Origin: a virus
Direction: 5' to 3' (one strand)
Virus record (IMG/VR): IMGVR_UViG_3300015164_000003
Location: 1 to 42,943 of that record
Length of the DNA stretch: 42,943 nt
Below the pieces are notes generated by a model. It was not told the origin of the DNA and did not search any database. It saw only the letters and a program-made list of their open reading frames with translations. Shown in pieces: positions 4,808-42,943 of the stretch. Every line of letters begins with the position of its first letter. Position 1 is the stretch's first letter. The position numbers and the translations under genes were made by a program.

Positions 4808-5271
4808 ACGTCCCCCTGCACCGGTTCGATGTCGGTCACGAGCCATCTGCTGCCGGTGCGTACGAGTGCTACCGACACACCATGCCGCATCCCGGTCTGC
4901 ACTACCCACACGGCGGTGGTGGGTGTGCTCCCGGCGAGTCCGGGGGTGCCGACGTGGGCGACGGTGATCCGGCGGGTGGTTTGGTCGAGGCCGTGGGCGA
5001 GCCGGGGGGTGGCGAGCCGCCGCATGGTGGCGTGCCACTGCGGGTCGGTGAGGCTGGGGCTGCCCCAGGCGCGCACGAACGCGGCAGCGACCGGCCCGGT
5101 CTGGGTGGCGGTGAGCGGGACGGGGGCGGCGCTCGCGTGCGGGGTCGGCGTCGGTGTGGGAGCTGCGACGACGACAGCGGTAGCGGTGGGGCGCAGGACG
5201 AGCAGCAGCCCGAAGCACACCAGGACGGCCAGGAGCAGCCCGGACAGGGCAACGATCGCGCGACGGGGCAT
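4804..5271 (-). CDS. Membrane-anchored NTF2-like protein of transfer block
   Basis: The 155-residue product begins MPRRAIVALSGLLLAVLV, a signal anchor to about residue 27. A Thr/Pro linker follows, then an extracytoplasmic domain ending VALVRTGSRWLVTDIEPVQG. That final pattern, with a Trp after a basic strand, is typical of NTF2-like folds used by TcpC/VirB8-type conjugation proteins and by small lipoproteins of actinobacterial plasmids. The start overlaps the upstream stop as TAATG. I infer a role in the cell-envelope part of DNA transfer. Confidence 0.55.
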   Translation of the reverse strand: MPRRAIVALSGLLLAVLVCFGLLLVLRPTATAVVVAAPTPTPTPHASAAPVPLTATQTGPVAAAFVRAWGSPSLTDPQWHATMRRLATPRLAHGLDQTTRRITVAHVGTPGLAGSTPTTAVWVVQTGMRHGVSVALVRTGSRWLVTDIEPVQGDV

Positions 5272-5618
5272 TAGGTGGTCGCCTCTCGCCCGAAGTCGGT
5301 GAGAATGTCTCGGACGTGGGTGCTGTGCTGATACCCCGAGAGCGCTCCCAACTTGCCGGTGGTCTCGAACCGCTCGCAGGCAGCCACGGCCGTGGTCAGC
5401 CTCTGTCGCAGCGTCTCGTTCTCCGCTGTGAGCGCCTTGACCTGCTCGCGCATGCCGATGCCCACGCAGTCTGGGCATCCCTGGCAGCACCTCGCTATCT
5501 CGCGCCCGTCTACGTACCCATGCACGTAGACGAGCTGCGTCGTCTCGCCCATGTAGGGGTTGGTCTTGGGCGCACAGCTATCGGGCTCATCCGCGGCGGG
5601 GCCGTCCGTGCCGTTCAC
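5271..5618 (-). CDS. Hypothetical Cys-cluster/coiled-coil protein
   Basis: The 115-residue product carries CCQGCPDCVG, probably a metal site, followed by a heptad stretch MREQVKALTAENETLRQRL. A GTG start overlaps the upstream TGA. No family recognised; it belongs to the operon between the NTF2-like protein and the divergent promoter. Confidence 0.6.
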   Translation of the reverse strand: MNGTDGPAADEPDSCAPKTNPYMGETTQLVYVHGYVDGREIARCCQGCPDCVGIGMREQVKALTAENETLRQRLTTAVAACERFETTGKLGALSGYQHSTHVRDILTDFGREATT

Positions 5619-5848
5619 GCGGCGACCGCCTTGCGAGTGCATCGGATCGCGCCGACGGTGTAGGCGTCGTGGGTCTCGGGGCGCAGCATCCACTCCGGGA
5701 GGAACTGGCCGGAGTACTTGGCGTTGTAGCCCTTGGCGTGGCGAACCATGATGCGGACGGCCTCGACGCCTGCGGCCTGCTTCGTGTCAGCGGTGACGCG
5801 GACGCGAAAGTCGCTGGTGGTGGTGACGGTGACGAGGTAGGTGTTCAT
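5615..5848 (-). CDS. Small hypothetical protein, 77 residues
   Basis: Begins MNTYLVTVTTTSDFRVRVTAD, a beta-rich start, with a helix around TKQAAGVEAVRIMVRHAKG. GGGAG precedes the ATG at a good distance. It is the first gene after a clear promoter and opposite the ribbon-helix-helix gene. Similar short proteins of the form MNTYxVTVxxxxxxRVxADTxxxA occur on actinobacterial plasmids, in my recollection; the function is unknown. Confidence 0.65.
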   Translation of the reverse strand: MNTYLVTVTTTSDFRVRVTADTKQAAGVEAVRIMVRHAKGYNAKYSGQFLPEWMLRPETHDAYTVGAIRCTRKAVAA

Positions 5849-5884
5849 TTCGGTCTCCCTGGTGTGTGCTTCCCTGTGAGACTT

Positions 5885-5913
5885 ACTGTAGGCGCATAAG
5901 TCACGGGGCGCAA
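5885..5913 (-). promoter_or_regulatory. Leftward promoter of the accessory operon
   Basis: On the minus strand TTGCGC and TACAGT are 17 bases apart, about 37 bases upstream of the 77-residue gene. Its -35 box lies next to the rightward -35 box of the divergent gene, so one bound regulator could control both. Confidence 0.6.
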
Positions 5914-5919
5914 GGCTTC

Positions 5920-5947
5920 TTGCCAAAGTTTCTGTAGTCGGTAAAGT
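5920..5947 (+). promoter_or_regulatory. Promoter giving a probable leaderless transcript
   Basis: TTGCCA and TAAAGT are separated by 16 bases, and only six bases lie between the -10 box and the ATG. Transcription would therefore start at or next to the A of ATG. Leaderless mRNAs are common in Actinobacteria. No ribosome site precedes the gene, in agreement. Confidence 0.6.
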
Positions 5948-5953
5948 GGCTGC

Positions 5954-6127
5954 ATGAGTCCCCGCACCGGTCGCCCGAAGTCCGACAACCCACACGTCAA
6001 GGTTGTGAGCGTGCGGCTCACGCAGGCCGAGTACGACGCCTGCCTTGATGCTGCCACGCGAAAGGAAGCGGGCATCGGCCCGTGGATGAGGGAGCGGCTC
6101 GTGGCAGCGGCGCGACGGTCCAAGTAG
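5954..6127 (+). CDS. Ribbon-helix-helix DNA-binding protein
   Basis: The 57-residue product contains VVSVRLTQAEYDACLDAATR, a typical beta strand plus first helix of the MetJ/Arc fold. The helix GIGPWMRERLVAAARR completes it. Such proteins act as dimers, often as plasmid copy-control, partition or relaxosome-type (MobC-like) proteins. It lies alone on the plus strand between two leftward transfer operons and probably autoregulates the divergent promoters. Confidence 0.75.
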   Translation: MSPRTGRPKSDNPHVKVVSVRLTQAEYDACLDAATRKEAGIGPWMRERLVAAARRSK

Positions 6128-6150
6128 TACGCGCCACCCGTGCGGCGTCC

Positions 6151-7440
6151 TCACGTTGTCCTCAGGGTGGCGGGGGTGGCGCAGGCGGCGGCTTGCACGG
6201 TGACGGGCTGAGCGACGCGCGCTCCGGGGAGCATCGAGGCGACGAGCGAGGCGGCCAGGCCTTCGTGTTTGGCGTAGGCGTCGGGGAAGGCGCTGTGCTG
6301 GACGGCCTGCGCGGCCTGTGTGAGGGGCATGGTGCGCCAGTGCGGGACGTGCTGGAGGTGCCGGTAGAAAGTCGCGGCGGCGAAGGCGGGGGTGGTGACT
6401 TGCGCGACGGTCCCCCAGCCTTGCGACGGGCGTTGCTGGAACAGCCCTTGGGAGTCGCGGTCGCCGTAGTGCAGGTTCCGCAAGCCCGACTCTTGCATGG
6501 CGGTGGCGATGGCGATGGTCTGCGCCCGCGGGCCGAGAGACGCGCCGACCTGGGCGATGATCGTGGCGTTGCGGGTCTGGTCGGCGGTGAGCCGGGTGCT
6601 GTGCGTGACGCTCGCGTTCAGGGCGGTGCCGCTGCTGGTGGGGCAGGGCTTCCCGCACGCTGCGACCTGCTGTGCTGTTGCGGTCTGCTGCTGGGCTTGC
6701 GCGGCCCGGTAGGACGCTGCCGCTGCCTGCTCCGGGGCGTTCGGCTCCCCCTTGATGCCGCTCTCAATCTCCCCGAAGATCCGGCCAATATCACGCGCCC
6801 CGGACATGATCGTCGAGCGCACATCAGAAGGTGTGATCTTGGCGTGCGCCACCTGCGAGACGGCGTTCCCGGCGTCGTGCGCCATCCACGCGATCCCTCG
6901 GACCATCTTCGGTTCCTCCCCGGCCGGTGCCGGTTGCGCCACGGCGGTCGTTGCGGTGTCGCAGGAGACCAGGCGGCGCAGCCCGAACGGGTCGAGCGGA
7001 ACCGGCCCCAGCCAGTACGGGTCCAGCGCCCCACCGTCGCCGTAGACCTGGCCGTGATGCTTCGCGGCCCACCCGGCGATCTCCCGGACCGGCTTCGGGA
7101 CGAGATAAAACCAGGCGCCCCACATCATCGCGCCGACCAGCAGGAAGACCCACACGAGCGTTTCGAGGACCGCTCGCGGCTGGGTGACTGCGGTGACCGC
7201 TGCTCCGACGGGGGTGGGGTTGCTGGCGAAGGTGCCGAGCGCGGCGGTCTTCCCGCCGCGCCGCTTGGCCTTGCGGATCGTCTCCGTGCGGATCTTCTGC
7301 CCGAACTCGTCCCGGCCGCGCATGACATGGCGGGGCACGTCCGTCCCGACCGTCGCGTGCATCCGCTCGGTGATCTGCGCATGCCGCTCGACGGCACCTT
7401 GCGCGACACCACGGGCGAACGCGGCAACGTCAACGCTCAC
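6151..7440 (-). CDS. Transglycosylase-like membrane protein of transfer block
   Basis: 429 residues. Residues 1-85 are basic and cytoplasmic, and 91-113 form one membrane segment (VLETLVWVFLLVGAMMWGAW). An Ala/Gln-rich linker follows, then a lytic-transglycosylase-like domain from ~290. That domain has TAMQESGL with the likely catalytic Glu317, and DSQGLFQQRPSQGWG. It would cut peptidoglycan at the transfer site, as VirB1/TcpG-type proteins do in conjugation. In actinobacterial integrative and plasmid elements such domains accompany FtsK/TraB translocases. It is ATGA-coupled to the small membrane protein upstream. A phage lysin role is unlikely given the anchor and a separate endolysin gene. 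Confidence 0.75.
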   Translation of the reverse strand: MSVDVAAFARGVAQGAVERHAQITERMHATVGTDVPRHVMRGRDEFGQKIRTETIRKAKRRGGKTAALGTFASNPTPVGAAVTAVTQPRAVLETLVWVFLLVGAMMWGAWFYLVPKPVREIAGWAAKHHGQVYGDGGALDPYWLGPVPLDPFGLRRLVSCDTATTAVAQPAPAGEEPKMVRGIAWMAHDAGNAVSQVAHAKITPSDVRSTIMSGARDIGRIFGEIESGIKGEPNAPEQAAAASYRAAQAQQQTATAQQVAACGKPCPTSSGTALNASVTHSTRLTADQTRNATIIAQVGASLGPRAQTIAIATAMQESGLRNLHYGDRDSQGLFQQRPSQGWGTVAQVTTPAFAAATFYRHLQHVPHWRTMPLTQAAQAVQHSAFPDAYAKHEGLAASLVASMLPGARVAQPVTVQAAACATPATLRTT

Positions 7441-7697
7441 GGCAGCGCCTCAGGCGGCGTGGCCTTGCGGTCGTGCGCGCCACGAGCAGCCCAGCCAAGC
7501 AGCGGCGACACAACCAGGAGCAGCACCACGAAGCGCGCCAGCCAACCGGCCTGCAGCCACCACCAGGCACCGAACATCGCCACGGCGGCGGTGACACGCC
7601 ACAGACGGCGGGCCAGGACACGGGCCAGCGGCGCCGTCCACGCACCCAGCAGCCCACCCAAGAAGCCACCACCGAAGGCAGAACGGCCAGTGCTCAT
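7437..7697 (-). CDS. Small two-segment membrane protein
   Basis: The 86-residue product has a Gly-rich start (SAFGGGFLGGLLGAW) and hydrophobic stretches around residues 34-46 and 54-70 (AVAMFGAWWWLQAGW, FVVLLLVVSPLLGWA). It sits between translocase and transglycosylase genes with ATGA-type overlap on both sides, which suggests a subunit of the same membrane complex. Confidence 0.65.
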   Translation of the reverse strand: MSTGRSAFGGGFLGGLLGAWTAPLARVLARRLWRVTAAVAMFGAWWWLQAGWLARFVVLLLVVSPLLGWAARGAHDRKATPPEALP

Positions 7698-9574
7698 CAG
7701 AAGTCCTCCACGGCAAGGTCCGACGTCACCGACGTCACGTCGGGCTGTGGGGGTGTCTGAGCGTGGGAGAGGCGGTCTCTGATGTCGGTGACCTCCGTTT
7801 GAGGCGTGTCACCGACATCAGAGAGGGCATCCACCGACGTCACACGGCGCCAGACGCGGGTGCTGCCAGACCACCCGGACTCCACCCCATCGACCATCTG
7901 GAGCGCCTTCCCGAGGGTGCGGACGGACGTGGTTCGCAGCCACTCCGGCAGGTCGAGGAACAGGTCGCTCGCGGAACGCGGCCCGTCCTGCAGGACCTCG
8001 TGGACGGCCACCTCAAGCGGGCTGCGCGGCACGGGCACGGCAGCCTTGACCAGGTCGACGCCCGCGTCCTCGATCGGCGGGAGTGGCATGTCCTGGCGCA
8101 GCACGGTGGCGCGCTTGATGACCTCGGCGAAGGCGGCGTCGTCGAACATCGGGACCTGCGCGAGTGCTGCTGTGTGCCGGTCGGAGCCGAACAAGAACTG
8201 CCCCGGCCGCGACGGCAGCACCTCCGGTGTGCGGTCCAGGATGTACCGGACCTCGGCTTCCTCGTACGTCTGTCCGACGCATCGCTGCGCCAGGTTCGCC
8301 CGGAGGTCGGTCGGGATGAACTCCGCGGTGCCGCGCTGCGCCAGCACCCAAATGCTGATCCCCCGCGAGCGGACGGTGGCGGCGAGCTCGATGAGCAGCG
8401 AGTCCAGTCGCTTCGCCAGCGCCGGGTCATGCCGGTTCGCTGCGGACCGGATCCGGGCCCACTCGTCGATGATGACGAGGATGGGTGCGTGCTCGCGGCC
8501 TTGCGTGCCGCGGTGGGCGCTGACCCGCTCGAGCGTCAGGAAGACTTCCTCGACCTGCCGGGCGCTGGCGTGGGTCGCGCCACCCACGAACGACTGGCAC
8601 AGATGGCCCACGGGATAGTCCTCGAGGTCATGCTTACCGTCGATCACGAACAGGTAGACGGTCGGGTCGAGCAGTGCATGGGCCAGGCCGTAGGCGGCCA
8701 GCCTGGTCTTGCCAGCGCCGGTCTGGGCACAGAAGGCCGTGTGCGCTCCGACGGTTTGGAGCACCACGGGCCTGCCCATGCGGTCTGGCCCGATGGGCAC
8801 TCCGTCTGCCCACACGGTCTGTTCGGGCAGGACGGCGACGGTGGTGCTCTTGGCTTGCGGGTCCAGGACGGTGATCGTCAGGTCGCAGGCGTCGTGCTCG
8901 TCGTTGTGCTCGAGGTGCAGTCGCTGGATGGGCAGGCGCATCGCCGAGGCCAGGGTGTCGTGCTTGCTGACGGCCTGCGTCCACACGTTCCCCTGTGGGA
9001 GTCGGATGGTGACCTGCATGCCCACGTCGGGGATGCGGACGGGCTTCCCTCGATAGCCGATCTTGGGGAGTAGGACAACGCCGTCTGAATCCTTCCCCGG
9101 GCTGCTGCAAATCCTGGAGGCAACGAGGGCCTTGCCGATGTTGGCGTGTGCCCACCACGACGCTGTGGGGGTGCCCTTCGGTGGCCGGCCGAGATATTCG
9201 ATCGCTCCGAGGGCGAGCAGGGCCGCCAGCACGGGCCGTCCGAGGCCGATGAGGAGCAGCGGCACGAGCACGCCGAGGGCGGTGAGGGCCGTCAGGTGCC
9301 GAGGTGAGCCGTGCAAGCCGACGCGCACGTCCAGCCCTGCTCGGGTGCGCCACACCCTGCGACCACCGACGAGCGCGACGAGCAGGGCGAGTCCGGGTGC
9401 GGTGCGGGCGGCGAGCAACGGCCCGAACGCCAGCAGCCCGAAGGCGAGGATGCCGAGGTGCGCTGCCTGCTTGGGGAGTCCTGCGCGGCGGGTTGCTTCG
9501 GCCCAGCGCTTCCAGGCGTAGCGCAGGATGAGGCTCGGGACCATGGGCGGCGTGCGCTCGATGGTGGTGCTCAT
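7697..9574 (-). CDS. FtsK/TraB-type DNA translocase
   Basis: 625 residues. Two hydrophobic regions (about 39-72 and 94-128) anchor it. A region of ~150 residues precedes the motor. The Walker A is AQTGAGKTR (283-291) and the Walker B ILVIIDEWA (365-373), in FtsK/HerA arrangement. Near the C-terminus a winged-helix-like part (residues ~525-585, ASDLFLDLPEWLRTTSVRTLGKAL) resembles the DNA-recognition domain of TraB proteins. Mycelial actinobacterial plasmids use one such protein to pump double-stranded DNA between cells. The ATG is placed just after the previous stop rather than far upstream. The last ~50 codons contain the repeated motif and perfect inverted repeat listed separately. It is the central transfer gene of this window. 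Confidence 0.88.
   Translation of the reverse strand: MSTTIERTPPMVPSLILRYAWKRWAEATRRAGLPKQAAHLGILAFGLLAFGPLLAARTAPGLALLVALVGGRRVWRTRAGLDVRVGLHGSPRHLTALTALGVLVPLLLIGLGRPVLAALLALGAIEYLGRPPKGTPTASWWAHANIGKALVASRICSSPGKDSDGVVLLPKIGYRGKPVRIPDVGMQVTIRLPQGNVWTQAVSKHDTLASAMRLPIQRLHLEHNDEHDACDLTITVLDPQAKSTTVAVLPEQTVWADGVPIGPDRMGRPVVLQTVGAHTAFCAQTGAGKTRLAAYGLAHALLDPTVYLFVIDGKHDLEDYPVGHLCQSFVGGATHASARQVEEVFLTLERVSAHRGTQGREHAPILVIIDEWARIRSAANRHDPALAKRLDSLLIELAATVRSRGISIWVLAQRGTAEFIPTDLRANLAQRCVGQTYEEAEVRYILDRTPEVLPSRPGQFLFGSDRHTAALAQVPMFDDAAFAEVIKRATVLRQDMPLPPIEDAGVDLVKAAVPVPRSPLEVAVHEVLQDGPRSASDLFLDLPEWLRTTSVRTLGKALQMVDGVESGWSGSTRVWRRVTSVDALSDVGDTPQTEVTDIRDRLSHAQTPPQPDVTSVTSDLAVEDF
7720..7843. repeat. 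Repeat cluster with perfect 17-bp inverted repeat, candidate cis-acting transfer locus
   Basis: CCGACRTCA occurs five times in 124 bases: 7720, 7729, 7812 and 7834 on the plus strand, and inverted at 7780-7788. Two of the copies are centred in a perfect inverted repeat, arms 7776-7792 and 7808-7824 (TCTCTGATGTCGGTGAC and its complement) around 15 bases. Coding needs alone do not explain such symmetry. In Streptomyces plasmids the TraB winged helix binds short repeats (clt) close to its own gene, so these could be its recognition sites. Confidence 0.6.
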
Positions 9575-9576
9575 GG

Positions 9577-9864
9577 TTAGCCGTGGGTGCTGTAGGCCGG
9601 CAACGCTGCTCCCCCGGCACCGGGCTTCGGGACAGCCGGCGCCGGTGCGGCAGCAGGCGGCGCTGGCGTGACCCCGGCCAGTTTGCGACCGTTCTCCACG
9701 CTGGTCTTGATGTCCCCAGCGGAGCCGCTGATGATCCCGACGGAGGTGGCGGCGGCGTTGAAGATGGCGTGACCGAACGCGGCAGCAGTCGCGGGTGCGC
9801 CGACCAAGCACAAACCGATGACCGGGTAGACAGCGACCTTCGTGAGCGTTTCGACGATAGGCAT
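9577..9864 (-). CDS. Small secreted or membrane protein upstream of translocase
   Basis: 95 residues: an N-terminal hydrophobic segment (TKVAVYPVIGLCLVGAPATAA), a Gly/Ala/Ser-rich second segment (FNAAATSVGIISGSAG), and a Pro/Ala tail. It ends just before the translocase ATG. GAAGGAG precedes the start. Its size and profile recall pilin-like or channel subunits of conjugation operons, but nothing proves this. Confidence 0.65.
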   Translation of the reverse strand: MPIVETLTKVAVYPVIGLCLVGAPATAAAFGHAIFNAAATSVGIISGSAGDIKTSVENGRKLAGVTPAPPAAAPAPAVPKPGAGGAALPAYSTHG

Positions 9865-9948
9865 GCGGTGCTCCTTCGTTGTGAGGTGGTGCGCGGTGCG
9901 TCACGCATCGCCGCCAGGAGCATAAGCCTTCGGCAAGTGCTTTGCGGT

Positions 9949-9960
9949 TAGTGTTCCGTT
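9949..9960 (+). promoter_or_regulatory. Possible -10 box for a leaderless transcript
   Basis: TAGTGT is followed by six bases and then the GTG start of the HTH gene, the same spacing as at the ribbon-helix-helix gene. Both upstream regions also share CATAAG. The -35 box is poor, so an activator may be needed. Confidence 0.35.
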
Positions 9961-10158
9961 GTGAACTACGAGCAGCGCGCCAAGACGGCTATGCGCAGGC
10001 TCGCGCGGCATGACGAGGACCTGGCGATGCGTGACGCTGCGATCTTCGGCATGTACGAGGTCGCCGGCATGAATCCGAGCGAGATCGGCCGGCGGCTGGA
10101 TCTGTCGCGGGGCACGGTGCGGTCGGCGATCTTGCGGCATCGGGCTTCGCGCCCGTAG
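9961..10158 (+). CDS. Helix-turn-helix regulator, 65 residues
   Basis: Residues 25-62 (RDAAIFGMYEVAGMNPSEIGRRLDLSRGTVRSAILRHR) form a sigma-region-4/homeodomain-like helix-turn-helix. The gene diverges from the translocase operon and has no ribosome site. It probably regulates the translocase operon, in the way KorA- or TraR-type repressors guard tra genes; this role is inferred from position. Confidence 0.7.
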   Translation: MNYEQRAKTAMRRLARHDEDLAMRDAAIFGMYEVAGMNPSEIGRRLDLSRGTVRSAILRHRASRP

Positions 10159-11150
10159 CGCGTCGCTGTCGCAAGTCGGGCGCTAGGGCGTAGGGTCCGA
10201 ACAAGCCGAAAGGCCACCGCCTCGACAACGGTGACCTTTCGAACCGCAAGACCTAGACCGGTAGGAATCGCGATGGCTGCAGATGCAGCGTACGACGGCA
10301 AGTGCCTCGCGTCACCGCTTGAGGCCCACAACACGCAACTGACTATGCGTAATGCATCGTGCCCGGGGGTGCCTGACGCCTAGCTGACCCCCCGACATGA
10401 CGAAGGACCGCCGGCAAGCGGTCCTGTCGTCCGTGCTGTTCTCGCCCACGAAGGCTCACGATGAAGGTATGGGACTGGTCCACACCGCGCAACAGCGGGT
10501 CTGGCGTGTCGCCTGGTGGCGCCGTTGGCTGATTGACACGGCAGCCGCCCAAGTCTGAACCTCCGGGCGGTGGTGAACGGTGTACTGGGTGTGCAACCGG
10601 GGCAGGGAGATAGCCGCCCGTCCGAGCTAACCCGGCGCTGCTGGCCGAAGCATCCGCGAACAGCTGTTCAGGCGCGCGGGGAGGATCGCCAGCGGGGTCA
10701 GGCGCTACGACGACGGGCAGGGGTCCTGCGGAAGCCGAAGTCAGGGACGTTCGGAAACGGCCTCAGTCGAACCGTTGCGAGGGGAAGTTCCTCGCCAGCC
10801 GAGCAGGCTGTACGGGAAAACAACGTCCAAATCAGCGCGAAGCGCCTCCCCCGAAGGGGCCAGCGGCGCAGCCGGACCTTGACTGGCACTGGACCTGGCA
10901 TCCGCGAGAAATCTTCCATCCACGAACGCGGGGCGCCGCCGGGCGCCAGCCCGGCCCTCCGGGAGGGAGAAGCGCAGCCGCCGGTCACAAGCGAAAGGCG
11001 CCAAGAGCAGGACGGGCAGCGGGAGCCGGGGCACAAGGAGGACGAGGGCAAGGTCACGAAGTGGCCGCGGCAGGCCAAGCGAAGCGCGGAGGCAGTTGGA
11101 CAGTTACCTCACCAACGCGCGCGCGAGGATTTTGCCGCGAGGCCGCGTGC
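10159..11150. other. About 1 kb without a credible gene; hairpin-rich, candidate structured RNA or origin
   Basis: No frame here has a ribosome site and a protein-like composition; the longest open frame gives a low-complexity Arg/Gly/Ser product. Many perfect local hairpins occur: GGACCGC/GCGGTCC near 10405, CGGGCGG/CCGCCCG enclosing ~45 bases near 10564-10620, GCGAGG/CCTCGC near 10780-10797, GCGC/GCGC and CCCC/GGGG near 10837-10860. The 12-bp palindrome GAACAGCTGTTC also lies here. On the minus strand one loop is cUUCGg, and the hairpin at 10207-10241 pairs fully only on that strand. A large noncoding RNA transcribed after the par operon, a plasmid origin, or both are possible. Confidence 0.45.
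10207..10241 (-). terminator. Strong hairpin, probable end of leftward transcript
   Basis: Thirteen-base arms surround a 9-base loop. On the minus-strand RNA every position pairs, one as G-U; on the plus-strand RNA there is one A-C mismatch. This bias suggests the leftward RNA is the functional one. Only a weak T-containing stretch (GCTTGTTC) follows. Confidence 0.45.
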
Positions 11151-11531
11151 TTACCTACCTACGTCCAGGTCCAACGCGCCCTCGGCGAGCAGGTGTGCGG
11201 TGGCGAGCGCCAGGAGCACATCGCGGATCGGCCGGTTCTGCCGGTCGCAGTAGGCGTCCAGCGCCTCGTAGACGACCTGCGGCCAGATCCCGGCGTTGCG
11301 CTGCCGACCACCCGAGCGGAGGATCTCCGGGCCCAGGGCTGCTTGCAGGTAGGCGCGCGGGTCGTCGTGATGCTCGCGGAAGGTCGCCCACGGATCGGCC
11401 GGCGGCTTCGTACGACGGGCACGGGCGGACGCGGCTGCCGTCTCCGAGATGGTGGGCGGCGGGTCCTGGTCGAGCGCGACCGGACGGTGCACATCAACGC
11501 CGAGCTGCTGCCGCGCATTCAGGGCGTTCAC
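11151..11531 (-). CDS. Last gene of the par operon, possible ParB-like partner
   Basis: 126 residues with a disordered N-terminal half and a helical C-terminal half (YLQAALGPEILRSGGRQR, WPQVVYEALDAYCDRQNRPI). Small basic or helical proteins after parA are usually centromere-binding partners, but I see no helix-turn-helix or ribbon-helix-helix. The start is one of two adjacent GTG codons; the second overlaps the upstream stop. Confidence 0.5.
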   Translation of the reverse strand: MNALNARQQLGVDVHRPVALDQDPPPTISETAAASARARRTKPPADPWATFREHHDDPRAYLQAALGPEILRSGGRQRNAGIWPQVVYEALDAYCDRQNRPIRDVLLALATAHLLAEGALDLDVGR

Positions 11532-12112
11532 CACGCACCGCCGTGTTGAAAGTTATGGACGGGATGCTCTGTTCGGATGGCGTACTCCTCTGCGGCGATT
11601 GCCTGCTCGTCTGAAGCGAAGTGCTCGACCGTGGAGTACGCGACTTCCGGCCACCACAGCGCGCACTCAGCGTGCTCCCAGAATCGATGCACGCCTCGTA
11701 CCGTCTTGCCTACGTAGAGCAGACGATGACCTGGGTCGAAGAACCGGTAGACACACGAAGGCCGAGACGTGCACGGCGGCGCCGACTCAGACCTGACTGC
11801 AAGCTGATCTAGCAGATCGCGCTGGGCCCGTTCTTTCCGCTCCCCAGATGCGCCACGGCGCGACCTGGCGCTCTTGAACGCGAGGCTCAGGAAGTAGGCC
11901 TTCCGGGCGTGCTCGGCGCGTCGCGCCCGCTCGGCCGGCTCAAGGACGCCCTCAGGGTCGACCTCGCGGTCGAAACGATCGTCGAAACCTTTGCGAGCGA
12001 GCGCTCCGGCCGCTCGCCGTTCCTCCTCGCTGGCATTGGCCCACCGTGAGTTCGCCGCGATCCGGGCGCGCATCGACCGCTCGGAAGGCGTCAGCGGCAG
12101 CGGCTTGCTCAC
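11528..12112 (-). CDS. GIY-YIG family nuclease
   Basis: 194 residues. The C-terminal half has the fold's landmarks: VYRFF, LLYVGKT, then RGVHRFWEHA, and the distal Glu in AIAAEEYAIR, with a typical ending near HPVHNFQHGG. The N-terminal half is basic and helical (RSMRARIAANSRWANASEEERRAAGAL). It lies between parA and the last gene of the operon, an unusual place for a nuclease. Homing activity, incoming-DNA processing or plasmid competition are possible. A GTG overlaps the parA stop. The first tyrosine of the GIY motif is present as VYR rather than GIY. Confidence 0.75.
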   Translation of the reverse strand: MSKPLPLTPSERSMRARIAANSRWANASEEERRAAGALARKGFDDRFDREVDPEGVLEPAERARRAEHARKAYFLSLAFKSARSRRGASGERKERAQRDLLDQLAVRSESAPPCTSRPSCVYRFFDPGHRLLYVGKTVRGVHRFWEHAECALWWPEVAYSTVEHFASDEQAIAAEEYAIRTEHPVHNFQHGGAW

Positions 12113-12921
12113 CACGCACCCACGGGCAGGGTCTGGACCATCATCCGCTCCGTGAGGGCGGCCATGACCGTGCGGTAGTCCGCTGCGGCGTCGTGAGCAG
12201 GCTTGTAGGCGGTGGGGAGCAGACCAGTCTGAGGAAGCCGTTCCACGGCGGTACGGGACCGCACAGGCGGCAGCAACAGCGCTTGCAACCTGCTCGCCAT
12301 GCCGATCTGCCGGAAGGCGTCAGCCGCCGCGATGGTCTGCGGGGCTGGGACCGCACACGGCAACAGGCCGCGGAGCAGCGTCACTCCCCTAGCCGCCTCC
12401 TCCTCACGGATCAGCCCGACCTCGTACTTCAGCGCAAACACGTTCATCCCGGCGGGGACGAACGGCACGATCACATGGTCGGCTGCCTCGAGGACGCACA
12501 GCACGAGCAGGCTCAGGGTGCTCTTGGGCGCGTCGATGACGATCAGGTCGTACATGCTCCGCAGCGGTTCGAGCAGATCGGAGATGGCGTCCTCGCGCCT
12601 GCGTTTGCGGCCGGCGATGTGGTCCTCGGCGAGCATCATGCGGCTGCCGACCGGGAGCAGATCGAGATTCTCGGTGACGCGGCTGATGGCCTGCGCTGGG
12701 GTGATGCTCCCGACGATGGCATCGCAGATGCCGTAGAAGCCCTGGTCCCCTGCGGGCCGGTCGGGGCTGGCGAGCCAGTCAGTGAGGGATGCTTGCGCGT
12801 CGAGGTCGACGAGCAGGACCTTCTGCCCGAACGATGCCTGCTCGGCCAGAGCTGCCGCCGAAGTCGTTTTGCCAGCGCCGCCCTTGCCCACGATGGCGAG
12901 CACGTCGGCGCGGTCAGGCAT
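12109..12921 (-). CDS. parA: ParA-type partition ATPase
   Basis: 270 residues. The deviant Walker A KGGAGKTT is at residues 13-20 with the signature lysine. VLLVDLDAQAS (35-45) and DLIVIDAPKS supply the other nucleotide-binding segments. No N-terminal helix-turn-helix is present, so this is a short ParA (type Ib-like). It would segregate the element in its extrachromosomal form. It is preceded by an overlapping 80-residue gene and followed by the GIY-YIG nuclease. The last codons and intercistronic bases (GGTGCGTGGTGA) recur at the end of the next gene. Confidence 0.88.
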   Translation of the reverse strand: MPDRADVLAIVGKGGAGKTTSAAALAEQASFGQKVLLVDLDAQASLTDWLASPDRPAGDQGFYGICDAIVGSITPAQAISRVTENLDLLPVGSRMMLAEDHIAGRKRRREDAISDLLEPLRSMYDLIVIDAPKSTLSLLVLCVLEAADHVIVPFVPAGMNVFALKYEVGLIREEEAARGVTLLRGLLPCAVPAPQTIAAADAFRQIGMASRLQALLLPPVRSRTAVERLPQTGLLPTAYKPAHDAAADYRTVMAALTERMMVQTLPVGAW

Positions 12922-13156
12922 GGGTGCGGGTGGGGTCGTTGGGGATCAGCCCGGTCTTGTTGGCCTGGTCGAGCCGGTCAGCGCATTCGAGGAGGGCGAC
13001 ACCCAGCGCGCGGAGCTGTTCGGGGTAGCTGGAGAAGACCTCGAAGCCGTCTTCCAGCACGACGACCCCGAGGTGCTCACCCGGCCGGCTCCCTGTCTGC
13101 ACCCGGACTTTCGGCTGGTCGTCGCAGCTGAGGACGTAGGCGCAGGACAGGCTCAC
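12914..13156 (-). CDS. Hypothetical first gene of the par operon
   Basis: 80 residues from a GTG after AGGAG. Alternating beta-like segments (HLGVVVLEDGFEVFSSYPEQLRALGVAL) and a C-terminal charged helix are seen. The 3' end overlaps parA by 8 bases. No family recognised. Confidence 0.6.
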   Translation of the reverse strand: MSLSCAYVLSCDDQPKVRVQTGSRPGEHLGVVVLEDGFEVFSSYPEQLRALGVALLECADRLDQANKTGLIPNDPTRTHA

Positions 13157-13176: not shown

Positions 13177-13245
13177 GCGCACGGTGTGCGCTGTCCTGCC
13201 AGGATGGATGGAGGTAAGTAAGTATGGAAGGAAGTAAGTAGGCAC
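13177..13245. promoter_or_regulatory. Candidate partition operator/centromere
   Basis: Upstream of the par operon lie two perfect inverted repeats, GCGCAC-ggt-GTGCGC (13177-13191) and TCCTG-c-CAGGA (13194-13204). They are followed by the direct repeats GGTAAGTAAGTA and GAAGTAAGTA. Clustered symmetric and iterated sites before parA are typical of par operators and centromeres. The AT-richer GTAAGTA repeats stand out from the GC-rich surroundings. Which element binds a partition protein is unknown. Confidence 0.5.
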
Positions 13246-14051: not shown

Positions 14052-14249
14052 GTGACACATCATCTGGTCGGCGTGACCGAGATCGCGGCCATGTTGGGCG
14101 TCGGCCGCGAGCGGGTCCGGCAACTCACCCTCCGTGAGGACTTCCCCGCTCCGACAGTGGTTCTGACCGGCCAGAGGGTGTGGGAACGGAAGGCGATCTT
14201 GGACTGGTGCCGTGCCACCGGCCGGACCGTCGTACGCAAACGCCCCTGA
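14052..14249 (+). CDS. AlpA/excisionase-like helix-turn-helix protein
   Basis: 65 residues. LVGVTEIAAMLGVGRERVRQLTLREDFPAP is the winged-helix opening of MerR/AlpA-type proteins, and VWERKAILDWCRATGR its wing and last helix. Such proteins act as excisionases or activators of integrase or plasmid genes. The operator pair next to its start suggests autoregulation. It ends at a bidirectional terminator facing the lysis operon. Confidence 0.75.
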   Translation: MTHHLVGVTEIAAMLGVGRERVRQLTLREDFPAPTVVLTGQRVWERKAILDWCRATGRTVVRKRP

Positions 14250-14260
14250 ACGCCGAAACA

Positions 14261-14292
14261 CCCCCGCCTAGGCCATTTGGCCTAGACGGGGG
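14261..14292. terminator. Bidirectional terminator
   Basis: Fourteen-base arms (CCCCCGCCTAGGCC and GGCCTAGACGGGGG) around ATTT lie between two convergent genes. One position is C-A on the plus RNA and G-U on the minus RNA, so the leftward late transcript forms the complete stem, followed by TGTTT. Confidence 0.75.
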
Positions 14293-14316
14293 CGGAAGTG
14301 AACATTGCGTGAACGG

Positions 14317-14655
14317 TCAGGCAGCGGCGAGCGGAGCAGGCCGATCCGGGTCAGTCAGCGCGCGGCTCAGATGCCCAAGGGCCAGCATCCGCTCAGCAAC
14401 AGCCATCGACGCGGGCAACTGCGCCACCCGCACCGCCACCTCAAGGCCAGCCCGCAACACGGCCGGATCGGCACCACCCGCGAGACAGAAACGGACCAGT
14501 GCCTCCGTGCTGCCAGGGCGGGCGATCAGATAGGACATGTCGGTGCGCAGGTCCGAGACGGACCCGCCGCCGCGAAGGTAGGCGCCGACCAGAGCAGGGA
14601 CGGCAGTGAGCGCGGCGGTCGTCACCGCAGCGGGCACGTCCGGGTGCTCAGCCAC
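14317..14655 (-). CDS. Hypothetical late protein, 112 residues
   Basis: Helical and Ala-rich (AAVTTAALTAVPALVGAYLRGGG, ALVRFCLAGGADPAVLRAGLEVAVRVA). The GTG start overlaps the previous TAG by one base. It is the last gene of the late operon, after lysis genes. No family recognised. Confidence 0.6.
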   Translation of the reverse strand: MAEHPDVPAAVTTAALTAVPALVGAYLRGGGSVSDLRTDMSYLIARPGSTEALVRFCLAGGADPAVLRAGLEVAVRVAQLPASMAVAERMLALGHLSRALTDPDRPAPLAAA

Positions 14656-29162: not shown

Positions 29163-29358
29163 GCACGGCACGGCGGGGCTAGGCGCGGCGTGGCGGGGCT
29201 TGGCATGGCCCGGCAGGGCAAGGCAACTCAGGGGCTTGAGGTAGGGCGGCTGGCAGTCATCGGGGTTCGAGACCTCGACGCCCACGCACGGCACGGCGGG
29301 GCGAGGCAGGGCGGGGCGTGGCATGGCTGGGCTCGGCACGGCAAGGCAACTCAGGGGC
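29163..29358 (+). repeat. Two 73-bp arrays of GGCNN pentamers
   Basis: Copy 1 (29163-29235) and copy 2 (29286-29358) have equal length. Each is a row of twelve GCNNG units followed by the same tail, GCAACTCAGGGGC. Variable dinucleotides in copy 1 are AC, AC, GG, TA, GC, GT, GG, TT, AT, CC, AG, AA; in copy 2 AC, AC, GG, GA, AG, GG, GT, AT, TG, TC, AC, AA. The copies agree at both ends and differ inside. The 50 bases between them are not pentameric. Period 5 is incompatible with codon selection, so this is unlikely to be a protein gene even though one frame stays open. The second array ends 20 bases before the first cassette gene. Confidence 0.88.
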
Positions 29359-29378
29359 ACCACAACCAAAGGACGATC

Positions 29379-29960
29379 ATGGACATCCGCATGACCTTCA
29401 CCGGCACAACACCGCTACTCATGCACAGCGACGTAACAGTGAACGCACTCAACCCGCTCACCAAGGCCATCAAGAAAGTGACGAGCAAAAAGACCGGCAA
29501 GACCGACGAGGACCACGAAGAAATCGCACGACTCGAACACCTCGCAGGGCTCTACTTCGCAGAAGGCATCGGCCCCTACATGCCCGGCCGGAACGTCGAA
29601 GCCTGCCTCATCAAAGCGGGCGGCATCACCCGCATGGGCACGAAACTCAAGCAGGCACTGTTCGTCTCTACCGACACCAACCCGCTGGCCTACACCGGAC
29701 CACGAGACATCAAAGCCCTGTGGGCAGACGAAAACTTCCGCTACATGTCATCCGTCAAGGTCGGCCAAGCCCGCACGATGCGCTGCCGCCCGCAGTTTCG
29801 CGAGTGGAAGTTCGAATGCGAGGCGATCCTCGACACCAGCGTGATTGACCTTGCCGACCTGACGGACATCGCCGACACGGCCGGGCAGCGGATCGGCCTC
29901 GGCGACTTCCGGCCCCGCTTCGGCCGGTTCACGGCCACCGTGGAGCAGGCCACAGGGTGA
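29379..29960 (+). CDS. Orphan RAMP/Cas7-like protein (candidate), first gene of cassette
   Basis: 193 residues, AAGGA before the ATG. The N-terminus MDIRMTFTGTTPLLMHSD resembles the first strand and loop of RAMP proteins (pattern TPLxxxS). The C-terminus RIGLGDFRPRFGRFTATVE resembles their glycine-rich loop (GxGxxRxxxFGR). Between are conserved-looking blocks YMPGRNVEACLIKAGG, TNPLAYTGPRDIKALW and CRPQFREWKFECEAI. No CRISPR or other Cas gene is near. I recall homologues in unrelated phages and prophages, annotated only as hypothetical. RNA binding is an inference from the fold resemblance and from the arrays just upstream. It lies on the strand opposite to all structural genes around it. Confidence 0.7.
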   Translation: MDIRMTFTGTTPLLMHSDVTVNALNPLTKAIKKVTSKKTGKTDEDHEEIARLEHLAGLYFAEGIGPYMPGRNVEACLIKAGGITRMGTKLKQALFVSTDTNPLAYTGPRDIKALWADENFRYMSSVKVGQARTMRCRPQFREWKFECEAILDTSVIDLADLTDIADTAGQRIGLGDFRPRFGRFTATVEQATG

Positions 29961-31895: not shown

Positions 31896-33290
31896 TCAGA
31901 AGCTCATGAAGCGGCCAGGCCGGGCCGCCGTCGGGTTCGTGAGGCCGTGCGCGGCGAGCATCACCGCAATGAGCGGGCTGATCTCGGCCGTGCCCTTGCG
32001 GTCAATGACCCGGCCGTCACCCAACGGGCGCCAATGAGCGCCACGAACAGCCGTCGTCAGCTCACCCTGATCGTCATGCCAGGTACTACCGGCCAGCAAA
32101 GCGTCAGTGAAGGCGTTGTGCGCCCTGCCCTGATCGGCCTGCGACGGTTCCTGGGTGCCCTCGACCAGCCCGCGGGAAGCCGTGTCGGTCAGCACCTCAG
32201 CCGGACGCGCCCCCAACGCCTTCAGGCGAGCAGCCACCCATGTCGTGTCACGCCGGTAGTCCACCACCGACACCTGCACACCCCCATCAGGGCGATACCA
32301 GGCCGCCCCGATCGCCGACCACGACCGATCCGGGGCTGTTGCGACCGCATAGCGCGGAGCAGCGCCCTGCACCGCAGCCGGATCGGCCTGCCGAGCCCAC
32401 AACGACAGGTCAATCGCGGTGTCCGCGGCGCGCTCATCCACCCACTGGTTCAGGTAGGCGCGCCGGAACTCGTCCTCAGGCATCGACAGGAACTCGGCAG
32501 CGATCGTGGCCTCGTTGATCGTGTGCCCCAGCGCGGGCATGCACTCGCGCCACACCTCACGGTCCCCAGCAGGAGCGTCCTGCGGCGCCGACCACTCGAA
32601 GTAGGCGATCGCCCCCGAGTCGACCGCGAGACGGCCTGCCTTCACCTTGTCGCGGAAGAACGTGTGCTGCGGCGTGCCTGCCGTCGACACGAACCACAGT
32701 TGCGGCTCAGGGCGGGTGATCTGCGCGGGCGAGAACGCCTGCTCGAGGCGCCCGTCAGGCTGCGCGAACGCCTCGTCGACCACCGCAAGGTCCAGCGTCG
32801 AACCGTGTCCTGACTTCTCGGTGCCCGCGCTGATGTGATGGCGGCTGCCGTTCTGCCACAGCACCGCCTCGTGCCCGTTCGTCTTGCGAACGTGGAACAG
32901 CTGGCTGAGCAGCGACCGCTCGAGCATCGGGACGTGCTCGTCGATGAACTTCTTCCGCGCATCCACACCGGTCTGGGCGGCGTAGCTCATCACCTGCGGA
33001 CCGCCGAAGCCCAACGCCCGGTGGGCGAACAAGGCCAGCAGCAACGTCGTCTTACCCGACTGACGCGGGACCGTCAGGATCACCCGGCGGTACTTCAGTC
33101 GCCCCGTGGCGTTGTCGACCTCCAGCGCCACATCAGCGACGTGCTGCTGCCACGGCATCAGCGGCGTACCAAGTGCCGCAGCGAACTCGGCCACCCGGGC
33201 GCCATGGGTGGCGCACGACAGGTCGCGGCTAGTTCCGAAGCGGGGAAGACATTCCTGCGAGGAGGCGAGCGAGACCGTCGCTAGGCTCAT
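31896..33290 (-). CDS. Terminase large subunit
   Basis: 464 residues. Walker A VPRQSGKTT at 74-82 and Walker B LDLAVVDEA at 166-174 define the packaging ATPase. The nuclease half carries aspartates in RYAVATAPDRSW and VLTDTASRG. The ATG follows GAAGGAG, and the first 62 bases overlap the end of the small-subunit gene in another frame. It cuts and pumps DNA through the portal. Confidence 0.93.
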   Translation of the reverse strand: MSLATVSLASSQECLPRFGTSRDLSCATHGARVAEFAAALGTPLMPWQQHVADVALEVDNATGRLKYRRVILTVPRQSGKTTLLLALFAHRALGFGGPQVMSYAAQTGVDARKKFIDEHVPMLERSLLSQLFHVRKTNGHEAVLWQNGSRHHISAGTEKSGHGSTLDLAVVDEAFAQPDGRLEQAFSPAQITRPEPQLWFVSTAGTPQHTFFRDKVKAGRLAVDSGAIAYFEWSAPQDAPAGDREVWRECMPALGHTINEATIAAEFLSMPEDEFRRAYLNQWVDERAADTAIDLSLWARQADPAAVQGAAPRYAVATAPDRSWSAIGAAWYRPDGGVQVSVVDYRRDTTWVAARLKALGARPAEVLTDTASRGLVEGTQEPSQADQGRAHNAFTDALLAGSTWHDDQGELTTAVRGAHWRPLGDGRVIDRKGTAEISPLIAVMLAAHGLTNPTAARPGRFMSF

Positions 33291-42667: not shown

Positions 42668-42943
42668 GTTGTTGCCGCCGGAATAATGCGGCCCTGCTCG
42701 TCGCAGCGGTAGGCGGTGCCTGGGGTGAGGCCGTTTTCGCCTATGTACCCGATGGTGACGCGGTAGCGATCGCGGGCATCGTCGTACCAGCGCAGCTCGA
42801 CGGTGCCGCGGTGCCCGGCGGTGGCGGTGCCGCCGTGCCCGGCGGTGGCGGTGCCGCGGTCCCCGGCGGTGGCGGTGCCGCGGTCCCCGGCGGTGGCGGT
42901 GCCGCGGTCCCCGGCGGTGGCGGTGCCGCGGTCCCCGGCGGTG
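42664..42943 (-). CDS. Octapeptide-repeat protein, C-terminal part (gene split by window ends)
   Basis: Open from the right-hand end in the frame that reads octapeptides TAGDRGTA and TAGHGGTA. After about six units the sequence leaves the repeat as VELRWYDDARDRYRVTIGYIGENGLTPG and ends IIPAATT. This continues the gene that starts at the left-hand end. The capping segment with Trp and Tyr residues is typical for this repeat family. Together the pieces give at least fourteen repeat units. Confidence 0.85.
   Translation of the reverse strand, partial: TAGDRGTATAGDRGTATAGDRGTATAGDRGTATAGHGGTATAGHRGTVELRWYDDARDRYRVTIGYIGENGLTPGTAYRCDEQGRIIPAATT
42803..42943. repeat. 24-bp tandem repeat, right arm
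   Basis: About six head-to-tail 24-bp units. The last four are identical to one another, unlike the more varied left arm, which indicates recent duplication or homogenisation. Confidence 0.95.

Follow-up and report, generated by a model that had tools for sequence, protein, structure and literature searches.

A 992-bp gene-free interval with putative strand-biased terminators in an actinobacterial phage-plasmid

The viral record IMGVR_UViG_3300015164_000003 (42,943 bases, analysed over its full length and called the window below) contains a gene-free interval of 992 bp at positions 10159–11150. We read this gap, with a probability of about 60%, as an intergenic space that holds strand-biased terminators and an orphan spacer. 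Hairpins A and B/C in its left third would end transcription, and the remaining 600 bp would, by default, be a spacer that yields no product itself.

Genomic context of the interval

The record is an actinobacterial phage-plasmid. It carries siphovirus-type genes for a terminase (31896–33290), an N4-gp56-type major capsid protein, a tape measure protein and an endolysin. The terminase resembles those of actinobacteriophages and also that of one Ilumatobacteraceae MAG. The record is classed as linear. A 24-bp tandem repeat, CGGTGCCGCGGTCCCCGGCGGTGG, is common to both of its ends (1–201 and 42801–42943); therefore, the molecule is probably circular and the contig a circle broken within the repeat array.

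The gap is faced by convergent genes. On the left, a rightward gene (9961–10158, plus strand) encodes a 65-aa helix-turn-helix (HTH) protein similar to Sigma70 region 4 (Pfam PF04545, E 3.9e-6). A perfect 15-bp inverted repeat, GCGTCACGCATCGCC, has one arm in the promoter region of this gene (9898–9912) and the other inside the gene (10023–10037), and is possibly an operator pair. On the right, a leftward par operon (11151–13156, minus strand) encodes an 80-aa protein (12914–13156), ParA (270 aa, 12109–12921), a GIY-YIG-like protein (195 aa, 11528–12115) and a 127-aa protein with no assigned function (11151–11534). A leftward transfer-like operon (5271–9864, minus strand) encodes an FtsK/TraB-like translocase (7697–9574) and a cell-wall-lytic protein (6151–7440) resembling the C40/NlpC proteins found in transfer modules of Streptomyces plasmids. 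Genes for capsid, tail and terminase are present in this genome alongside the operon.

The gap runs from the stop codon of the HTH gene to the stop codon of the 127-aa gene, with no credible gene between them. By a coding-score gene model it is the longest gene-free stretch of the record, a marginal 53-aa open reading frame (10397–10558, coding score 2.9) being disregarded. Its period-3 power lies between the 0th and the 16th percentile of the whole window (300-nt windows). The description of the interval as one kilobase long and gene-free in a preliminary description of this DNA is thus upheld. That description had also held that a conserved protein frame would speak against an RNA in the gap. 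Such a frame was looked for, and the stop-free frames tested have no family in Pfam or PHROG. Most genes of the record overlap by a few bases, and a 600-bp spacer without function would be unusual here.

No DNA relatives of the gap are found in phages, plasmids or 396 Actinomycetota genomes, and comparison with 23 terminase-related viral records gives matches of chance length only. What the terminase relatives (L002–L024 and L033) have in common with the record is mainly genes for the virion and for packaging, and tblastn finds no par or transfer genes in the stretches of them that were compared. ParA, the FtsK-like protein and the 127-aa protein have no relatives in viral contigs that would supply homologous gaps. 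The HTH and FtsK-like proteins have only distant relatives, and a scan of genome contigs for the FtsK-like protein gives none. A 17-mer from the purine-rich part of the gap has nine matches in viral contigs, all in unrelated sequence.

Hairpins A, B and C

Hairpin A (10194–10253, minus strand) is proposed to be a leftward intrinsic terminator. It consists of a 16-bp core stem (10206–10242) with the loop GUCGA and two outer helices, and CUUGUUCG, with 4 U in 8 nt, comes next to the core in the leftward direction. The preliminary description had noted a strand-biased hairpin ending near 10207, and the calculation agrees: the segment 10190–10255 folds with −36.2 kcal/mol on the minus strand (z −5.4) and −23.0 kcal/mol on the plus strand (z −3.2). 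The hairpin is weaker on the plus strand because 8 of the 25 minus-strand pairs are G-U.

Hairpin B (10399–10431, minus strand; −23.6 kcal/mol, z −5.1) has a 14-bp stem with one bulge and the loop UGCC. Its tail, AUGUCGGG, is U-poor (2 U in 8 nt), and we propose an I-shaped terminator or a hairpin that protects a 3' end. Hairpin C (10360–10397, minus strand), with a GGGGGU/ACCCCC stem, comes directly after B. Folded together (10340–10440), B and C reach −46.8 kcal/mol on the minus strand (z −3.6), with z −1.5 on the plus strand. Hairpin A lies 36–95 nt past the HTH stop codon, and all three hairpins lie about 720–960 nt past the stop codon of the par operon.

In term-seq of Streptomyces clavuligerus, 3' ends counted as highly structured and U-rich when they folded below −23 kcal/mol and carried 3 or more U within 8 nt. 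Strong hairpins of the U-rich class were taken as intrinsic terminators, and strong hairpins poor in U were likened to ends of the I-shaped or Rho-associated kind (PMC8269248). Groups of adjacent hairpins are reported to serve commonly as terminators, and the distance from stop codon to terminator is usually no more than about 80 nt (PMC8355165). Hairpins A and B are both stable, GC-rich and beyond their shuffles, as expected of terminators. By the published energy and uridine limits hairpin A falls into the U-rich class, and hairpin B fits the U-poor class. A simple terminator scan with a threshold of 5 T in 8 finds no site in the gap.

A similar hairpin is present at another pair of convergent gene ends. 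The strongest structure of the window in a 150-nt scan is at 14251–14400, and a hairpin at 14240–14310, between the genes 14073–14249 (plus) and 14317–14655 (minus), folds with −41.9 kcal/mol on the minus strand (z −4.95) and −33.1 kcal/mol on the plus strand, a minus-strand bias as in hairpin A. We favor terminators because A and B fit the S. clavuligerus classes, because clusters of adjacent hairpins are common terminators, and because this second hairpin occupies a similar position. The convergent gene order, the shuffle-level folding of most sequence outside the hairpins, the lack of coding signal and the lack of a known RNA point the same way. The weak point is the distance of 720–960 nt between the stop codon of the par operon and the hairpins.

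Like intrinsic terminators of high-GC actinobacteria, the hairpins combine a strong GC-rich stem, a short loop and an energy below −23 kcal/mol with a location at convergent gene ends, and hairpin A adds the 4 U in 8 nt. They differ in their distance from the par-operon stop codon. As putative terminators, they add further examples to an ordinary class.

On this reading, two transcription units would meet head-on in the gap, one being the short rightward HTH gene and the other the leftward par operon. Leftward transcripts that pass the end of the par operon would cross a C/U-rich stretch of about 600 nt that has no special structure, and would stop at the tandem hairpins B/C (10360–10431) and then at A, before entering the HTH gene antisense. 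Hairpin A would probably also stop rightward transcripts of the HTH gene, less efficiently.

The leftward strand has stretches with more C than G at 10958–11119 and 10656–10793, which rank 35th and 44th of 944 in the genome. Rho loading on such C-rich, G-poor stretches is possible but weakly supported, and a Rho loading site was rejected as a feature of the gap, the stretches not being outstanding in the genome.

Folding across the interval

In a 100-nt scan with 60 shuffles per window, the minus strand gives z −4.9 at 10201–10300 and z −3.9 at 10326–10425. Structure is concentrated at two places (10200–10325 and 10300–10450), and the sequence between the hairpins (10251–10375) is at shuffle level. 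From 10450 to 11150 both strands are mostly near or above the shuffle mean, the exception being the plus strand at 11001–11100 (z −3.3). At the 300–600-nt scale, z stays between −0.4 and +1.8 in the right part of the gap, whichever strand is folded, and the segment 10540–11150 (611 nt) has z +1.5 on the plus strand and +0.9 on the minus strand. The left third (10159–10540) has z −3.1 to −4.4 on the minus strand and near 0 on the plus strand.

RNase P RNAs of Actinomycetota, with GC 0.51–0.72 and the sense strand set by covariance-model placement, were folded with the same code as controls. Nine of the 12 were counted (L074, L078 and L082 had wrong coordinates), and they give z −2.3 to −6.9. 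The minus strand of the left third is within this range and the remaining gap is outside it. Similar behaviour would be expected of a large ornate RNA with a GC content like theirs.

The preliminary description had called the whole interval hairpin-dense. The gap has two perfect stems of 7 bp or more that enclose loops of 3–15 nt, compared with 1.37 per kb for the window, and the excess folding is confined to the left third, so the term does not apply to the whole. Against shuffled controls, hairpins A and B/C place the left third below the shuffles, and the remaining 600 bp fold no better than shuffles. Of the long leftward RNA ending at 10207 that the description had suggested, the end is plausible, given the minus-strand bias of hairpin A and its 4 U in 8 nt; a long hairpin-dense RNA is not supported.

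Two smaller features in the right part had also been put forward. One, the c(UUCG)g loop, occurs at 10848–10859 on the minus strand, but is closed by a stem of only 4 bp. The other, the 12-bp palindrome GAACAGCTGTTC at 10658–10669, resembles a Gram-positive LexA box, but the window has five palindromes of this kind, and the pattern GAAC-N4-GTTC occurs at chance level; an SOS box at 10658 was rejected for this reason.

The right 600 bp as a possible transfer site or origin

The main alternative for the right 600 bp, and a possible one, is a site that acts in cis for the translocase encoded nearby. For the gap as a whole, such a DNA site would be an oriT or clt read by the adjacent FtsK/TraB-like translocase, or a replication origin, and the hairpins would be DNA structures or protein sites; we consider this rather unlikely. 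The gap adjoins both the transfer-like operon, whose lytic protein matches Streptomyces plasmid transfer modules, and the par operon, and long noncoding sites are usual in transfer and partition modules. The likeness to the clt or oriT of Streptomyces plasmids with a TraB-type translocase lies in noncoding DNA beside an FtsK/TraB-like gene. The difference is that the gap has no clustered recognition repeats: neither iterons nor any direct repeat present in at least three copies is found in it. The octamer GACCCGGA, which we take to be the Streptomyces TraB recognition sequence, is absent from the gap, although another translocase may read another sequence. There is no AT-rich segment in the gap, and the idea of a plasmid origin, raised in the preliminary description, gains no positive support from its repeats or composition. 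G-U pairs make the hairpins more stable on one of the two RNA strands, a bias that extrusion from DNA would not need. Partition-site-like tetranucleotide repeats lie upstream of the par operon instead (13210–13245).

A possible small leftward RNA

The left third could also encode a leftward small noncoding RNA of roughly 250–350 nt that starts near 10450–10540, contains hairpins B, C and A, and ends at hairpin A (about 10200). The folding of 10159–10540, within the RNase P range on the minus strand and near z 0 on the plus strand, is consistent with such an RNA. However, this z-score is produced by two sites with local hairpins, and the sequence between them is at shuffle level. A simple scan finds no promoter-like site, and neither an Rfam family nor a homologue was found. 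We regard this RNA as unlikely. Its more specific form, a structured RNA at about 10200–10540 that is unrelated to any Rfam family and serves the par/transfer region, for instance by regulating partition or transfer, is improbable. Should a discrete RNA come from the left third, the partition and transfer genes would have a new regulator beside them; nothing here demands that.

The reading as a missed or decayed gene

A protein gene that has decayed or been missed, for example within a 227-aa open frame at 10570–11253 (plus strand), is quite improbable. The frame is open and its coding score is slightly positive at 10821–11140, but the period-3 power of the gap is as low as given above, the third-position GC of the frame is 0.73–0.75 compared with about 0.85 for most genes, and Pfam and PHROGs give no family. 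The frame also overlaps the 127-aa gene antisense by 100 bp. A pseudogene was rejected, the gap having neither a period-3 signal nor protein families.

Giant RNAs and other known RNA families

The preliminary description had suggested a giant ornate RNA such as GOLLD or ROOL. Length near 1 kb, the phage genome and the purine-rich plus strand, as in RNase P RNAs, are compatible with a giant RNA that fills the gap, which we nevertheless judge very improbable. A covariance-model search with Rfam, the check proposed for large bacterial RNA families, gives nothing in the window at gathering score and nothing in 9850–11600 at E ≤ 10. The record has no tRNA, and thus no tRNA array; GOLLD is often, but not obligatorily, near tRNA islands (PMC12286853). 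On neither strand does the segment 10540–11150 fold better than its shuffles; the RNase P controls do. In addition, the structured part and the purine-rich part are on opposite strands. The purine content of the plus strand in the right part rises to 0.62, the maximum of the window, leaving a leftward transcript C/U-rich. In every correctly placed RNase P control the sense strand is the purine-rich one; in the gap, the purine-rich strand is the plus strand and not the leftward one.

The gap therefore shares with GOLLD (RF02032) and with ROOL a length class and a phage context, and differs from both in having no Rfam match, no tRNA array and no excess folding over two thirds of its length. The GOLLD model RF02032 has no match in the window and also none in 296 Actinomycetota genomes, hence no positive control. 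GOLLD and ROOL are excluded to the extent that Rfam models allow, and a candidate giant RNA is taken off the list. A group II intron, prompted by the purine-rich strand, was rejected, with no match to domain V or D1–D4 at E ≤ 10. Before a long gene-free interval in a GC-rich phage is called structured, its folding needs to be set against shuffles and against a positive control, for instance RNase P RNA.

Repeats outside the interval

Inverted repeats of tetranucleotide type, GTAAGTAGGCAC and GTAGGTAAGCAC, flank the par operon (13210–13245, plus strand; 11147–11162, minus strand) and are possibly a partition site or an operator. The pattern GTARGTARG, chosen after it had been seen, occurs 14 times with one mismatch allowed, compared with 4.9 expected. 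Around the start of the gene 29205–29960 (plus strand), two 73-nt direct repeats (29163–29235 and 29286–29358) are 86% identical and carry a GGC-type motif about every 5 nt.
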